Positions 8,682 through 14,161 are shown, counted from the stretch's first letter. The stretch: 37,465 bases of DNA from Clostridia bacterium (GCA_017441705.1 JAFRWU010000067.1:1-37465); one strand, 5' to 3'. Notes: a model not told the origin generated them from the letters alone. Numbers and translations are program-made.

Positions 8682-10100
8682 CTATTCGCGGATCTTCAGC
8701 GTCTTCCACTTTCCGGTGCGGACGCGGAGCCAGTAGAGCAGGAAGCGCACGTAGCTGTCGATCACCATGCAGGCGACGCACTCCGGGAGCCTCAGGCCCA
8801 GGATCTGGATGCAGACGATCGCGCCGAGGAACGCGCGGAAAAACCACATGCAGCTCGCCGTGATGATCATCGGCCAGAGCGTGTCTCCCGCTCCGCGCAG
8901 GCCTCCCGCGAAGACCATCGCTCCGGTCTGGGCGGGCTGCAGGATCGCGGCGATGCGCAGACAGCGCGTCGCGAGGGCGATCACGTCGGGATCCTGGGAA
9001 AAGAGGACCACCACGTACCGCCCGAAGAAGAAGAGCCCCAGCCCCGCGACCGTCATGACCACGACCGAGGCGCGCACGCAGGTGAACATGTACCGGTCCG
9101 CGAGGCCGGTCTTTTTCGCCCCGAGCGACTGGCCGACGAGCGTCGTGCTCGCGGCGGCAAAGGCGAAGCCCGGCATGAAGGCGATGGATTCCGCCGTCAC
9201 GTAGACGGTGTTCGCCGCGATGGTCACCGTGCCCAGACTCGCGATGGAGCGGCTGATCACGACGTTCGCGCTGGACATGCAGACGCGTTCCAGCATGGCC
9301 GGGACGCTGATCTTGAAGATCTTCCCTACCAGCTTGAAATCCAGCCGGTAGCTTTCGCGGAGCGTGATGTGCATCGGGGAGTTCTTTCTTACGAAAAGGA
9401 GGGCGATGGCGATCACTCCGCCGGCCGTCATGGATACGGCGGTCGCCGCAGCCGCGCCGTCGACGCCCCAGCCGGCGCCGATCATCGGCACCGAGAGGCC
9501 GAAAAGGTCCATCCTGCGCGTCGGATAGATCAGAAAGAAGTTTCCGACGACGTTGAGCACGTTCACGCCGATGTTGATCCGGAGCGGCGTTTTCGTGTCG
9601 CCGATGCCGCGGAGCGCGGAGAAGATCAGCATCGAAGCGATGCTGAAAAAGCGGCCGAAGGCGACGATCAGATTGTATGAGGCGGCGTAATCGATGATAT
9701 CCTCGCCGGCTCCCATCAGTTCGGGGATCAGCCGGTGCCCGGCTCCGAGGACCACGGTGATGGGGATGCCCAGATAGAGCAGGATCAGGACCGCGTGCTT
9801 TGTAAGCTTGCGGGTCATGTCGAAGTCCCGGGCGCCGATGGACTGAGAGATCATGGCCGTGACGCCGATCCCCAGGGACATGATGACGCCGTTCAGCAGA
9901 AAGACGACCGAATTGGAGATGGATACCGCCGCCGTCGCGTAGGCGCCCATCGTCCCCACCATGGCGGTATCCGCATAACCGACCAGCGTGGCAAGTACGT
10001 TTTCGAGAAAGATCGGCCAGGTCAGATGCAGGATGTTCCGGAGCGGGGAGCGCGATTCGTCCACGTAACTGACGGCATTTTTGCTTTTTGCATCACTCAA
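8682..10100 (-). CDS. MATE family multidrug/metabolite exporter
   Basis: 472 residues, twelve predicted membrane segments in two MatE halves. The first half opens with LRNILHLTWPIFLENVLATLVGYADTAMVG (about 20-49), the conserved MATE start, and has GVTAMISQSIGARD. The second half has FKISVPAMLERVCMS and TTLVGQSLGAKK. It is an inner-membrane Na+ or H+ antiporter; the substrate cannot be read from sequence. The Shine-Dalgarno before the ATG at 10100 is weak, but a good promoter lies 33 bases upstream of the ATG. It is transcribed separately from the etf operon that follows it on the same strand. Confidence 0.9.
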   Translation of the reverse strand: MSDAKSKNAVSYVDESRSPLRNILHLTWPIFLENVLATLVGYADTAMVGTMGAYATAAVSISNSVVFLLNGVIMSLGIGVTAMISQSIGARDFDMTRKLTKHAVLILLYLGIPITVVLGAGHRLIPELMGAGEDIIDYAASYNLIVAFGRFFSIASMLIFSALRGIGDTKTPLRINIGVNVLNVVGNFFLIYPTRRMDLFGLSVPMIGAGWGVDGAAAATAVSMTAGGVIAIALLFVRKNSPMHITLRESYRLDFKLVGKIFKISVPAMLERVCMSSANVVISRSIASLGTVTIAANTVYVTAESIAFMPGFAFAAASTTLVGQSLGAKKTGLADRYMFTCVRASVVVMTVAGLGLFFFGRYVVVLFSQDPDVIALATRCLRIAAILQPAQTGAMVFAGGLRGAGDTLWPMIITASCMWFFRAFLGAIVCIQILGLRLPECVACMVIDSYVRFLLYWLRVRTGKWKTLKIRE

Positions 10101-10385: not shown

Positions 10386-10413
10386 GCAACATTCCGGGAA
10401 GCAGAGCTGTATA
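10386..10413 (+). promoter_or_regulatory. Candidate ECF-sigma promoter of the lipoprotein/sigma/anti-sigma operon
   Basis: GCAAC (10386-10390), 17 bases, then TGTATA (10408-10413). This fits the general ECF layout of an AAC-containing -35 element followed after 16-17 bases by a CGTA/TGTA-like -10. No good sigma-A -35 is present at the right distance. The operon encodes an ECF sigma factor, so autoregulation is plausible. The ATG at 10470 is about 50 bases beyond the expected start. Assigned on pattern alone. Confidence 0.45.
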
Positions 10414-10469
10414 TATGGCAGAACGCAAAAAGCGTTCGGAAAAATCAACCGGAATGTGAGGGATCACGT

Positions 10470-11525
10470 ATGAAAAGAATGACAGCAGCTTTCCTGATTC
10501 TCGCCCTGTTCGCTTCCATGGGCGCCGTCCTTTCCTCCTGCGGGGAGGATATCACCGACTCCTCCGCCATCGCCGAAGGGATCGACGGAGGCTGGACGAA
10601 GCCCGCCTCGCCCGTGGTCACCGAAGAGCTGAAGAAGATCCTCGACAAGGCCTGCGAGACCCTGGCCGGCATGGAATACATTCCCGTCGCCTATCTCGGT
10701 AGCCAGGTCGTGGCCGGAACGAACCATTCCTTCCTCTGCAAGGCGCGTGCCTCCTACGAAGACGCCGAGGCGTATTACGCGGTCGTCACCGTCTATGAGG
10801 ATCTCGAAGGAAACGCCGAGATCCTGAACGAGGTCATGACCGACATCGTCGCGGAAAGCGGCGACGCTCCCGGCGCCTGGACCGAGACCGCGACCCCCGA
10901 GCTGACCGACGAGGCGAAGGACGCTCTCGCAAAAGCCTGCGAAGCCCTGACCGGCATGGAATACACGCCCGTGGCGCTGCTCGCGACCCAGGCCGTCTCC
11001 GGCACGAACTACCGCATCTTCTGCGAGGCCGCGGCTTCGGTCCCCGGCGACGTCTCGAGCTACGTGATCCTCGTCGTGAACCGGGATCCCCAGGGCGGCG
11101 CGGAGATCGTCGAGACCCTCCTCTTCGAAAAGGAGGAATACACCCAGATCGCGAATCCCGTCGTGGAATACGGAAGCGACGAGGAGTCGCTCGAGAGCGC
11201 CGAGAAGCACGTCGGCTTCCGGCTGGATATCCCGGCGGACATCAAGGCCGACCAGTATATCGTGATCAGCGGGAAGATCCTGGAAGTGGATTTCGAAGCG
11301 GGATACATCCGCAAGTCCGCGGGCTCCGACGACATCAGCGGAGACTATAACGAGTACGCCGAGACCGCGGAAAAGGACATCGGCGGAAAAACAGTCACCC
11401 TGAAGGGCAACGGAGGCAGGATCTATCTTGCAATCTGGACCGACGGCGGGTATACTTACTGTGTCGGCATGTACGACGGCGTCACGGAAGACCGGATGGC
11501 GTCGCTCGCGGAAGCCGTAAAATAA
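10470..11525 (+). CDS. Lipoprotein with two cystatin-like repeats and a DUF4367-like C-terminal domain
   Basis: 351 residues from the ATG at 10470 (GAGGG 7 bases upstream). The frame is open upstream, but only this Met gives a signal peptide: MKRM, a hydrophobic core, then lipobox LSSC with Cys24. Two repeats follow at about 40-125 and 136-220. Each opens GGWT or GAWT, has a helix of the KACETLAGMEY type, and then SQVVAGTNHSF (78-88) or TQAVSGTNYRIF (173-184). The QxVxG core is the signature of the cystatin fold. From about 229 to 351 the sequence matches the C-terminal domain of the anti-sigma factor two genes downstream: SGDYNEY versus SGDLNEY, KTVTLKG versus LTVTLRG, DGGYTYCV versus DGYSFSI. 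It is therefore likely an exported, membrane-anchored partner or antagonist of the anti-sigma sensor domain. The role is inferred. Confidence 0.85.
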   Translation: MKRMTAAFLILALFASMGAVLSSCGEDITDSSAIAEGIDGGWTKPASPVVTEELKKILDKACETLAGMEYIPVAYLGSQVVAGTNHSFLCKARASYEDAEAYYAVVTVYEDLEGNAEILNEVMTDIVAESGDAPGAWTETATPELTDEAKDALAKACEALTGMEYTPVALLATQAVSGTNYRIFCEAAASVPGDVSSYVILVVNRDPQGGAEIVETLLFEKEEYTQIANPVVEYGSDEESLESAEKHVGFRLDIPADIKADQYIVISGKILEVDFEAGYIRKSAGSDDISGDYNEYAETAEKDIGGKTVTLKGNGGRIYLAIWTDGGYTYCVGMYDGVTEDRMASLAEAVK

Positions 11526-11548
11526 CAGCAGGAGCCGGGTGAAGAAAG

Positions 11549-12139
11549 ATGACTGGAGCCGCGTATCGATCTCTGTCCCCCATATATCTCTTCGGGAGGT
11601 ACGCCCTCCTTCTTCTGGCGCCGCTCTCCGGCGCGGGATACGAAACCGAGGACGACGCGGCTCTCGTGCGGGAAAAGGCCGGATACTTCTTCGACGCCTT
11701 CGGCGATTCGATCCTCCGCCTCGCCTATTCCTATCTGCACAATATGGATGACAGCGAGGAGGTCCTGCAGGACACCCTCATCCGCTACCTCCGTTCCGCG
11801 CCGAAGTTTCTGAACGACAGGCACGCGAAGGCCTGGCTGATGCGCGTGGCCGCGAACCTCAGCAAAAACCGGATCCGGTACAACACGATCCGCCGCGCGG
11901 ACGAACTGAACGAGGAACTGGCCGCCGAGGAGCGCGAGGATCTCTCCTTCGTGTGGGAGGCCGTGAAGAGCCTGACGCCGAAATACCGGGAGGTCATCCA
12001 CCTCTATTACGAGGAAGGATATTCCGCCTCCGAGATCGCGGAGATCCTGGGAAGAAACGAAAACTCGGTGCGTTCCGACATGAAGCGCGGCCGGGAGAAG
12101 CTGAAGGAGATCCTGAAGGGAGGGTACGATTTTGAGTAA
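11549..12139 (+). CDS. RNA polymerase ECF-family sigma factor
   Basis: 196 residues. Sigma-70 region 2 lies at about 43-110 (ILRLAYSYLHNMDDSEEVLQ, then KAWLMRVAANLSKNRIR). Region 4 lies at about 134-190 (VKSLTPKYREVIHLYYEEGY, then ASEIAEILGRNENSVRSDMK), giving the DNA-binding helix-turn-helix for the -35 element. The order lipoprotein, sigma, anti-sigma with a 4-codon-scale overlap to the next gene indicates one transcript. The start is uncertain: the ATG at 11549 gives an extra 40 residues with a hydrophobic stretch (about 11-27, YLFGRYALLLLAPL). AGGAG is 14 bases upstream, which is far. A GTG at 11666 would give a normal-length ECF sigma but has no clear ribosome site. Function as a sigma factor is firm; regulon unknown. 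Confidence 0.9.
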   Translation: MTGAAYRSLSPIYLFGRYALLLLAPLSGAGYETEDDAALVREKAGYFFDAFGDSILRLAYSYLHNMDDSEEVLQDTLIRYLRSAPKFLNDRHAKAWLMRVAANLSKNRIRYNTIRRADELNEELAAEEREDLSFVWEAVKSLTPKYREVIHLYYEEGYSASEIAEILGRNENSVRSDMKRGREKLKEILKGGYDFE

Positions 12140-12737
12140 GTACAGCGACGTGATGGAACATATCGCGGTCACTCCCGAGATGAGGGAAAGGATCCTTGAC
12201 CGCGCCGTATCCGCCGGACGCATAAAGGCCCGCCCTTCCCGCTTCCGGTCGGCCGGCCGGATCCTGGCGCTGGCCGCCTGTCTTGCGCTGCTCGTCGCCG
12301 GCGCGGCCGCCGTGAGCAGCCGTTTCGCGGAGAACCGGGCGGAAGAGTTCACATCGGAGCTGACTCTGGGTCCCTCGCAGTACGAAAGCGCGGAGGAGCT
12401 CTCAGGCGCGGGCGGCATCCCGATCCGGGATCTCTCCTGGCTTCCCTTCGAGGCAGAGGAAACGGTCTATCAGTCTTTCGGAACCGGTTTTTCCGAGATC
12501 GTATATACCGGTGAGGACGATCGCGTCTGCTACCGCGTCTCGACCGGGAGCGGGGACACCTCCGGCGACCTGAACGAATACTCCTGGGTCGAAACGAGAG
12601 TCATGGACGGGCTGACGGTGACTCTCCGGGGCGAAGAAGGGCTCGTCCACTGCGCCTTTTACGAAAAGGACGGATACTCTTTCTCCATCACCTCCGAAAA
12701 AGGTCTGACTCCCGAACAGATCGAAAAAATGATCTGA
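12132..12737 (+). CDS. Transmembrane anti-sigma factor with DUF4367-like sensor domain
   Basis: 201 residues from a TTG at 12132 that overlaps the sigma stop by 8 bases and has GGAGGG 7 bases upstream, so translation is probably coupled. Residues 1-42 are a short cytoplasmic region (MEHIAVTPEMRERILDRAVS), fit for binding the sigma factor. Residues 43-62 are one membrane helix. Residues 63-201 are outside the cell and end in a domain (about 90-201) homologous to the C-terminus of the lipoprotein encoded at 10470-11525. Its cytoplasmic part is shorter than a classical zinc-binding anti-sigma domain and has no HxxxCxxC motif. It presumably holds the sigma factor inactive until the outer domain senses its signal. 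The assignment rests on gene order, topology and the shared domain. Confidence 0.8.
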   Translation: MSKYSDVMEHIAVTPEMRERILDRAVSAGRIKARPSRFRSAGRILALAACLALLVAGAAAVSSRFAENRAEEFTSELTLGPSQYESAEELSGAGGIPIRDLSWLPFEAEETVYQSFGTGFSEIVYTGEDDRVCYRVSTGSGDTSGDLNEYSWVETRVMDGLTVTLRGEEGLVHCAFYEKDGYSFSITSEKGLTPEQIEKMI

Positions 12738-13150
12738 CACGCGGAAAACGGAATCCGTCTTCCGCCTTCCGTCTGCGGGCACGGCAGGAGAAGGCGGGAC
12801 ACCGCCTGAAGAATGAACGGATCCGTCAAGCGGGAACAGATTGCTCCCTCCGTGAAAGGCGGCGCGAAAAAGCCGCCTTCCACGGAGGGAGCACCTTTCT
12901 TTTTGGTTCTCTGCCGGATACCCCGGCTGTTGACAGACAGCCTGTCAAAATGCGCATAGAATGCTTATCGGCCTGGCGGCATACGGATCATGAATTCCCG
13001 GGCGGTATGATATCGTGATATCAGAACGGACATGCCGGGAAAGGAACGCAAACGGGAATACGGGGAAAATGCCGTCTTTACAGGGATGCCCCGCTCTTTT
13101 TATAGGTTCCTCCCCAAGTCATCCTTCGCTTCTCATTTCAGAACCTTCCG
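12738..13150. other. Convergent intergenic region with terminator and two perfect inverted repeats
   Basis: 413 bases between the end of the anti-sigma gene (+) and the end of the oxidoreductase gene (-). It contains the terminator at 12842-12905 and two operator-like inverted repeats: TTGACAG-N5-CTGTCAA (12930-12948) and TGATATC-GT-GATATCA (13008-13023). A CGGGG/CCCCG hairpin with a T run (about 13074-13103) lies beyond them. No protein-coding frame with a ribosome site was found. A small RNA cannot be excluded. Confidence 0.4.
12842..12905 (+). terminator. Rho-independent terminator of the lipoprotein/sigma/anti-sigma operon
   Basis: Near-perfect stem of over 20 bp: TGCTCCCTCCGTG plus AGGCGGC pairing with GCCGCCT plus CACGGAGGGAGCA, with a short A-rich loop, followed by CCTTTCTTTTT. 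It lies 105 bases after the anti-sigma stop. Confidence 0.9.
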
Positions 13151-14161
13151 TCACGCGTCCGGCATGACCGTCTTTCCCGTCGCGGCGGATTCGTAGACGG
13201 CGAGGATCACCCGGACCGTGTCCGCCGCGTCCCGCGCCGTATACCGGAGAGGCTCTTCGCCCCGCAAGGCGGCGGTGATGTTCCGGTACTGCGCCGTGTG
13301 CAGATCTGCGCCGAACGCGGAAGGCTCCTTCCAGTTCCCGTTCGCCGTGGGGACGCCGCCGGTCAGATCGATCCCCTCGGCGGACACGAGCGCGTCCTCC
13401 TCGATCGTCACGGAGGCCCGCGTGCCGCAGATCTCCAGGCGTCTCGGCCTGGCGTGCCGGACGGCGGTGCTGGCGTCTATGACCCCCAGCGCGCCGGAGG
13501 GAAAGACCAGGCTGGCCGCGGCGGAATCCTCCACCTCGATGTCGTGGCAGAGCGTGGCGACATACCCCGAGATCCGCGTCGGGACGCCGAGCAGTCCGCA
13601 CATCACGTCGATCCCGTGGATCCCCTGGTTCATCAGGGCTCCCCCTCCGTCCATGGCCTTCGTGCCGCGCCAGGTCCCCGCGTAGTATTCCGGGGACCTC
13701 CAGTATTTCATGGACAGGGAAGCCGTCAGGATCCGGCCGAAAGCTCCGTTTTCCACGGCAGTTTTCACCGCTCTGTACGTTTCGGAAAAGCGCAGCTGGG
13801 AGATCGGGGCGCAGATCCTTCCGGTCTCCCGTTCCGCCTCGAGGATCCGGCGGCAGTCTTCGCTGGTCAGCGCGATCGGCTTTTCCACAACGACGGATTT
13901 CCCGCTCCGCATCAGCGAAACGGCCAGATCGGCGTGGGTTCCGCTCGGCGTGCAGATCGCCGCGAGGTCGGAAGCGTCCGACAGCAGTTCTTCCGGGGAT
14001 CGGTACGCGCGGATCCCGTTCTCTTCCGCGAAGCGGACGGCGGACGCCGTATCCAGGCTGTAGACGCCGGCGACGTCGATCCCGTTTCCGCGCATGGCGG
14101 CCAGATGGGTCCCGGCGATCATGCCGCTGCCGATCAGGACAGCTTTGATATTCGTACGCAT
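13151..14161 (-). CDS. Gfo/Idh/MocA family NAD(P)-dependent oxidoreductase
   Basis: 336 residues; ATG at 14161 with AAGGAG 6 bases upstream. Residues 1-120 are the Rossmann domain: KAVLIGSGMIAGTHLAAMRG carries the nucleotide-binding turn (GSGMIAG), AICTPSGTHADLA follows, and VVEKPIALT (about 93-101) holds the family EKP motif with its catalytic Lys. The C-terminal alpha/beta domain has GGGALMNQGIHGIDVMCGLLG, also typical. Members oxidise or reduce sugars, inositols or their derivatives. Last gene of the leftward run from 21.4 kb, 60 bases after the MBL-fold gene, so a role in sugar metabolism is likely. The sugar is unknown. Confidence 0.9.
   Translation of the reverse strand: MRTNIKAVLIGSGMIAGTHLAAMRGNGIDVAGVYSLDTASAVRFAEENGIRAYRSPEELLSDASDLAAICTPSGTHADLAVSLMRSGKSVVVEKPIALTSEDCRRILEAERETGRICAPISQLRFSETYRAVKTAVENGAFGRILTASLSMKYWRSPEYYAGTWRGTKAMDGGGALMNQGIHGIDVMCGLLGVPTRISGYVATLCHDIEVEDSAAASLVFPSGALGVIDASTAVRHARPRRLEICGTRASVTIEEDALVSAEGIDLTGGVPTANGNWKEPSAFGADLHTAQYRNITAALRGEEPLRYTARDAADTVRVILAVYESAATGKTVMPDA

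Follow-up and report, generated by a model that had tools for sequence, protein, structure and literature searches.

The window, as the whole stretch of 37,465 nucleotides analysed here is called, comes from a Clostridia bacterium and contains three consecutive genes that code for a lipoprotein (the exported partner), an ECF sigma factor and an anti-sigma factor. The features of the locus are the following, with positions counted from the first letter of the window:

10386-10412, + strand: ECF-type promoter GCAACA-N16-TGTAT, with the -35 element at 10386-10391 and the -10 element at 10408-10412
10470-11525, + strand: lipoprotein (exported partner, P0001), 351 aa, ATG start
10530-10541, + strand: lipobox LSSC, assigned from the sequence, with Cys24 as the putative lipidated residue
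10587-10853, + strand: cystatin-fold repeat 1 of the lipoprotein, residues 40-128 (Foldseek/VIA and profile matches to PDB cystatins)
10704-10718, + strand: QVVAG of cystatin-fold repeat 1
10872-11135, + strand: cystatin-fold repeat 2, residues 135-222, with QAVSG (Foldseek/VIA, profile and alignment)
11145-11522, + strand: shared DUF4367-related domain, partner copy, residues 226-351 (BLASTP, profile-profile comparison and model)
11310-11357, + strand: conserved loop RKSAGSDDISGDYNEY of the partner copy, R281-Y296 (conserved columns; a loop in the model)
11549-12139, + strand: ECF sigma factor, 196 aa, sigma-70 regions 2 and 4 (Pfam PF04542 and PF08281, both over cut-off)
12132-12737, + strand: anti-sigma factor (P0003), 201 aa, TTG start
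12375-12734, + strand: shared DUF4367-related domain, anti-sigma copy, residues 82-201 (BLASTP, profile-profile comparison and model)
12534-12581, + strand: conserved loop RVSTGSGDTSGDLNEY of the anti-sigma copy, R135-Y150 (conserved columns)
12842-12904, + strand: intrinsic terminator, a hairpin at 12842-12893 followed by a T tract

The lipoprotein and sigma genes are separated by 23 bases, and the sigma and anti-sigma genes overlap by eight. The TTG start of the latter is kept in the sister species G004. The sigma factor has sigma-70 regions 2 and 4 only and adjoins a protein that crosses the membrane once and has its N-terminal part in the cytoplasm, which places the pair among the ECF modules. 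In the model of the anti-sigma factor, two short N-terminal helices that form the cytoplasmic part are followed by one transmembrane helix (about residues 43-62) and the outside domain. The terminator hairpin has a predicted energy of -45.7 kcal/mol (z -8.6). Both flanking large open reading frames that read as genes (8682-10100 and 13151-14161) are placed on the - strand and, therefore, the three-gene operon stands alone. The tightly packed operon between one promoter and one terminator, as described in the first-pass annotation, was recovered in all its parts, the promoter being of the ECF type.

The C-terminal domains of the lipoprotein and of the anti-sigma factor, about 120 residues each, had been proposed to be homologous, and three comparisons bear this out. 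Pairwise BLASTP aligns them at 35% over 66 aa (E 5e-11). Their local score is 117, whereas the best of 5000 shuffles scores 64, so that none of the 5000 reaches the observed value. A profile of 21 partner domains matches a profile of 28 anti-sigma domains over the full length (E 5.5e-45, probability 100). Chance similarity of the two copies is ruled out by these results. Of the 19 columns conserved in both the partner and the anti-sigma family, the residue is the same in 17, many of which lie within the loop R281-Y296/R135-Y150, and the densest conserved block in both copies is the loop around D-x-S-G-D-Y-x-x-Y. This concentration of conservation in a loop, and not in the core, suggests a functional surface common to the partner and the anti-sigma factor. 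The structure predictions, made from shallow alignments (11 and 12 rows) of window and related-locus sequences, give both domains the same fold and not unrelated ones: strand, helix, seven strands and helix in the same order, with pLDDT mostly above 90.

The assignment of the domain to a family depends on its relatives. The window's own C-terminal domains match no Pfam family, DUF4367 (PF14285, curated cut-off 22.1 bits) gives no match to either protein up to E 10, and a direct search of the window's own genome with the DUF4367 profile gave zero matches, so that relatives are needed to place the domain. Four partners from operons of the same layout score over the cut-off (L112, 3.6e-9; L114, 1.1e-7; L116, 1.3e-7; L109, 1.1e-5), as does the anti-sigma factor of L114 (4.9e-8). 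The DUF4367 check suggested earlier is thus positive for relatives and negative for both window copies, and for this reason the domain is named DUF4367-related. Of 391 genomes of the class, 107 contain DUF4367, and the operon module is a minority within this family. A literature search, outside which most subscription journals lie, found no mention of DUF4367. Just before the domain, P0001 (residues 226-230) and its relatives carry a QIPNP-type strand conserved at 71-95% per position, which is absent from the anti-sigma copies and could mark a partner-specific contact. At G549:C43:18336-19129 (-), in another genome of the class, two DUF4367 domains are found in separate small open reading frames about 170 bases apart.

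A domain search followed by reading of the neighbourhoods gave 20 loci where the gene of a domain-bearing exported protein is next to those of an ECF sigma factor and of an anti-sigma factor with the domain; among these, the contig of L109 ends before the anti-sigma gene and L068 is divergently arranged. As a guard against bias, a second survey began from the sigma factor and covered 394 genomes of the order, taking homologues of at least 53% identity (the next best has 45%). Such a homologue is present in 13 of the 394 genomes. All 13 anti-sigma factors carry the domain, and a linked exported partner with the domain is found in 12. In the remaining genome, G330, an exported SLH-domain protein (PF00395, 1.6e-19) that lacks the shared domain fills the partner slot, with a motif of the same form upstream; this protein is encoded at L067 4377-4994 (-) and its upstream motif reads GCAACAAATGCTGGGAGCCAGCTGTATATAAAG. 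A partner gene usually absent or unlinked in homologous operons had been named as the outcome contrary to the first-pass reading, and the partner is instead linked in 12 of the 13. The view that the sensor domain exists twice, once tethered and once in the anti-sigma factor, stands, and the layout is conserved.

The partner is composed of a variable N-terminal part and the constant shared domain. Cystatin repeats make up the N-terminal part in the window, L011 and L058, with a single repeat in L021. Cu_amine_oxidN1 takes this place in eight operons of the order and in L112, L114, L116 and L117 of the class, the last with additional choline-binding repeats. The partners of L022, L024 and L109 have no other recognised domain, and that of L066 (3694-4677, - strand, genome G329) consists of two tandem shared-domain copies with nothing else recognised. 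Some partners are lipoproteins and many others have an ordinary signal peptide, so that the lipid anchor of the first-pass reading is not essential. At L115 and L124 a cystatin-only lipoprotein lies beside the sigma factor and the domain-bearing anti-sigma factor. Together with the SLH protein of G330, these cases indicate that the shared domain itself is not indispensable in the slot. The domain is also found at 18 loci in exported proteins without a linked sigma factor and may therefore have a general role in the envelope.

Residues 40-222 of the lipoprotein, overlooked in the first-pass annotation, form two cystatin-fold repeats. The model of this region matches potato multicystatin 4lzi (Foldseek E 1.8e-5, prob 1.00; VIA Z 10.8 over 181 residues) as well as stefins and other cystatins. 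A profile of eight such repeats was compared with the PDB and its top twelve matches are all cystatins (best E 3e-4). Both repeats carry QxVxG in the first hairpin loop, and the Q and G are invariant in the repeat alignment. Since the window repeats do not reach the Pfam cut-offs (SQAPI 17.2 bits against 31, and no cystatin match over cut-off), they are described as cystatin-fold and not as members of a filed family. Stefins have been reported in Clostridia, and bacterial cystatins have been proposed as inhibitors of host proteases (PMC2784779). The two cystatin-type domains of the window may plausibly act as cysteine-protease inhibitors. The repeats belong to a clostridial family of lipoproteins with conserved QxVxG that is mostly unrecognised by Pfam. 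Some of its members are joined to the DUF4367-related domain, some stand by themselves next to an ECF/anti-sigma pair, and others have neither nearby. Cystatin-fold repeat lipoproteins elsewhere are:

L124, 1017-1709
L115, 4007-4495
L012, 6567-6809
L013, 7185-7778

Upstream of the operon, the 37-base block 10386-10422 is identical in the window and in the sister species G004. A sigma-A reading of the promoter was dropped, as this conserved block has the ECF-type form; a consensus scan of the + strand found no sigma-A promoter directly upstream. The motif was searched as GCAAC-N17-TGT, with the expectation taken from shuffled sequence, and occurs at a fixed spacing upstream of 18 of the 20 operons (0.1 expected). 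It also precedes four of eight sigma/anti-sigma pairs without a linked partner and one of the 18 standalone domain copies. That single copy is the partner L110 of genome G556, located 1.9 Mb from its own sigma/anti-sigma pair, and both sites carry the motif. The first-pass annotation had listed the lipoprotein as a possible target of the pathway, and this option gains strength from a partner that carries the ECF-type promoter of the operon even when unlinked. As judged from the motif before linked and unlinked partners alike, the partner is very probably transcribed by the sigma factor of the operon. The window's 2.8 Mb genome has a single exact match to the motif, the one before this operon, which is the only target found there. 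No larger regulon was found in this genome: allowing up to two mismatches adds two other hits, within the range of the reversed control. Across the window's order the motif mostly occurs once per genome, again at the operon.

The history of the pair was followed in a tree of 70 domains, which has few columns and many unresolved forks. The window's anti-sigma copy groups with other anti-sigma copies in a supported set of 16, and its partner copy belongs to a supported set of 29, mostly partner and standalone copies. The pair is therefore old. A recent tandem duplication within the window's genome is excluded, as the tree places the two copies in different supported parts. At least four changes between anti-sigma and exported contexts are required by its supported branches, and the same pair is found at L021 with a different ECF subgroup, the sigma factor being 29% identical to that of the window. 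On these grounds, the pairing probably arose more than once.

The first-pass annotation knew of no described system with this layout. A precedent of the principle, and the one that is described, is LbpA in the csfV operon of C. difficile, an ortholog of RsiV without the sigma-binding part that is membrane-bound and binds lysozyme (PMC9044953). RsiV releases its sigma factor by proteolysis, and LbpA gives low-level lysozyme resistance and is reported without a role in sigma V activation or regulation (PMC9044953). In csfV-rsiV-lbpA, as in the window, an ECF operon adds a relative of the outside domain of the anti-sigma factor that lacks the sigma-binding part. In contrast to LbpA, the partner described here is a lipoprotein or a secreted protein that has additional domains; its gene is the first of the operon, and in many cases only the sigma and anti-sigma genes accompany it. 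The RsiV/LbpA families DUF3298 and DUF4163 gave no Pfam match to P0001 and P0003 up to E 10, or to 12 domains up to E 1, and with different sensor families the likeness is one of design and not of membership. The RsiV fold is not among the PDB matches listed for the shared domain, which excludes nothing. A lipoprotein gene in an ECF sigma operon with a negative effect on the system is also known from sigE-cseA-cseBC of S. coelicolor, unlike the present operon in that it has no anti-sigma factor, works through a two-component system and does not have sigE as its own target (PMC6767563). Firmicutes pairs of an ECF sigma factor and a DUF4367-type anti-sigma factor share the order of the genes, sigma first and then a single-pass anti-sigma with a C-terminal outside domain, whereas the present operon adds a third protein, exported and bearing the same domain, under the same promoter. 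Literature searches on decoy copies of anti-sigma domains returned unrelated work only, and no description was found of this DUF4367-related sensor family, of the promoter-defined module or of the cystatin fusion, most subscription journals lying outside these searches.

The conserved layout and the resemblance to LbpA probably point to a ligand-mopping feedback loop. The preferred reading, held tentatively and at just short of an even chance, is that of a nearly self-contained ECF loop whose main output is an exported second copy of its sensor domain, which would bind the same ligand and dampen the signal. In the resting state the anti-sigma factor would keep the sigma factor at the membrane. 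A ligand or envelope signal would then be recognised by the outside domain of the anti-sigma factor and the sigma factor freed, probably by regulated proteolysis; members of the site-2 protease family are encoded in the window's own genome. The freed sigma factor would transcribe its own operon from the GCAACA-N16-TGTAT promoter, and the first gene would yield a surface-anchored or secreted protein whose domain may recognise the same ligand. By drawing the ligand off the anti-sigma factor and the cell, the partner would protect the cell and damp the signal, much as LbpA may do with lysozyme. The variable N-terminal part may set the location of the domain (lipid anchor, wall-binding repeats or secretion) or add an activity.

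Several lines of evidence, drawn from sequences and models, are consistent with the exported-copy loop. The two domains are homologous and agree in their conserved loop and in their predicted fold, the layout recurs in 20 loci and in 12 of 13 genomes, and the promoter precedes 18 of 20 operons and the unlinked partner of G556. The shared domain stays constant while the N-terminal part varies, and LbpA offers a precedent by analogy. Against it stand the 18 unlinked domain loci, 17 of them without the motif, the SLH protein of G330 and the cystatin-only lipoproteins of L115 and L124 in the partner slot, and the placement of RsiV and LbpA in other Pfam families. The feedback component of the loop has no direct precedent, since LbpA is reported to take no part in the regulation of sigma V.

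A possible, though unlikely, alternative is that the partner acts as RseB does, binding the anti-sigma factor domain to domain and shielding it from, or presenting it to, the first protease. As the sigma factor makes the partner, this would be a built-in off switch. In the RseA/RseB (MucA/MucB) systems of Proteobacteria, the outside part of the ECF anti-sigma factor likewise works together with a distinct exported protein. RseB is not known to be a second copy of any domain of the anti-sigma factor that it binds, in which it differs from the present pair. Homologous domains often form pairs, and the gene pairing within one operon is fixed at 1:1. The C-terminal domain of RseB is the best-scoring solved match of both C-domain models (VIA Z 7.7 and 7.4, rmsd 2.5-3.6 over 80-90 residues), but these scores lie below the tool's threshold of 8, in the noise range of models without a true match. 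The Foldseek E values to RseB are 0.1 and above, Mog1, PsbP and LpqN-type folds being also listed, and the weak fold likeness is accordingly a lead only. The MucB/RseB families gave no Pfam match to P0001 and P0003 up to E 10, or to 12 domains up to E 1. In S. coelicolor, expression of sigE is lowered by CseA, the lipoprotein encoded in its operon (PMC6767563), which agrees with a regulatory partner. On the other hand, the most conserved loop is the same in both copies and is also kept in standalone exported copies without a linked anti-sigma factor, as would be expected of a common ligand more than of an interface between the two.

Slightly less probable again is a reading in which the domain is a general envelope-docking module. 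The anti-sigma factor would touch an envelope component with it, and the partner would use it to keep an effector part (cystatin or wall-binding repeats) at that same site, with neither titration nor feedback. The variability of the N-terminal parts, the standalone lipoproteins with the domain and the wide distribution of DUF4367 in the class agree with it. The slot can also be occupied by SLH or cystatin-only proteins in this or a similar module, and in G556 some exported proteins preceded by the motif lack the domain, a YcdB/PepSY protein being among them. However, the partners of L022, L024 and L109, and that of L066 with its two shared-domain copies, would have nothing known to deliver, and the mostly single occurrence of the motif per genome in the window's order, at the operon, also speaks against this surface role. 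A doubtful further reading concerns the cystatin repeats: an extracellular cysteine protease that attacks or docks on the outside domain of the anti-sigma factor could be the signal, the domain of the induced lipoprotein serving as bait while the two fused cystatins would disarm the protease and so turn the signal off. If so, the exported slot could be a swappable position for bait and counter-measure across Clostridia. The absence of any functional tie, with a common envelope domain placed twice in one operon through ordinary duplication or shuffling, would suit a domain that is common in Clostridia and has changed context at least four times, but is already disfavoured and very improbable given the pair kept in 12 of 13 close sigma homologues, the separate supported tree sets of an old and retained pair, its presence with the different ECF subgroup of L021 and the promoter common to linked and unlinked partners.

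ECF sigma factors rank among the most common bacterial signalling systems, and few ligands of anti-sigma factors have been identified. An exported sensor copy would be a soluble and separately testable sensor, and its binding target would reveal the signal. The comparison suggests a broader design, that of ECF systems exporting a twin of their sensor, of which the C. difficile arrangement with LbpA would be one instance, and it would link bacterial cystatin-fold proteins to regulated envelope defence. The promoter motif marks little else in the window's genome. The regulon is larger in G556, where the motif also precedes two more exported proteins, L127 1740-3026 (+) and L143 3-1277 (-), one with YcdB/YcdC and PepSY and the other without a Pfam match. 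In G587 (L142, L138) a second ECF sigma gene has the motif at its start and a further exported protein is preceded by it, so that cross-regulation between ECF systems is possible there.
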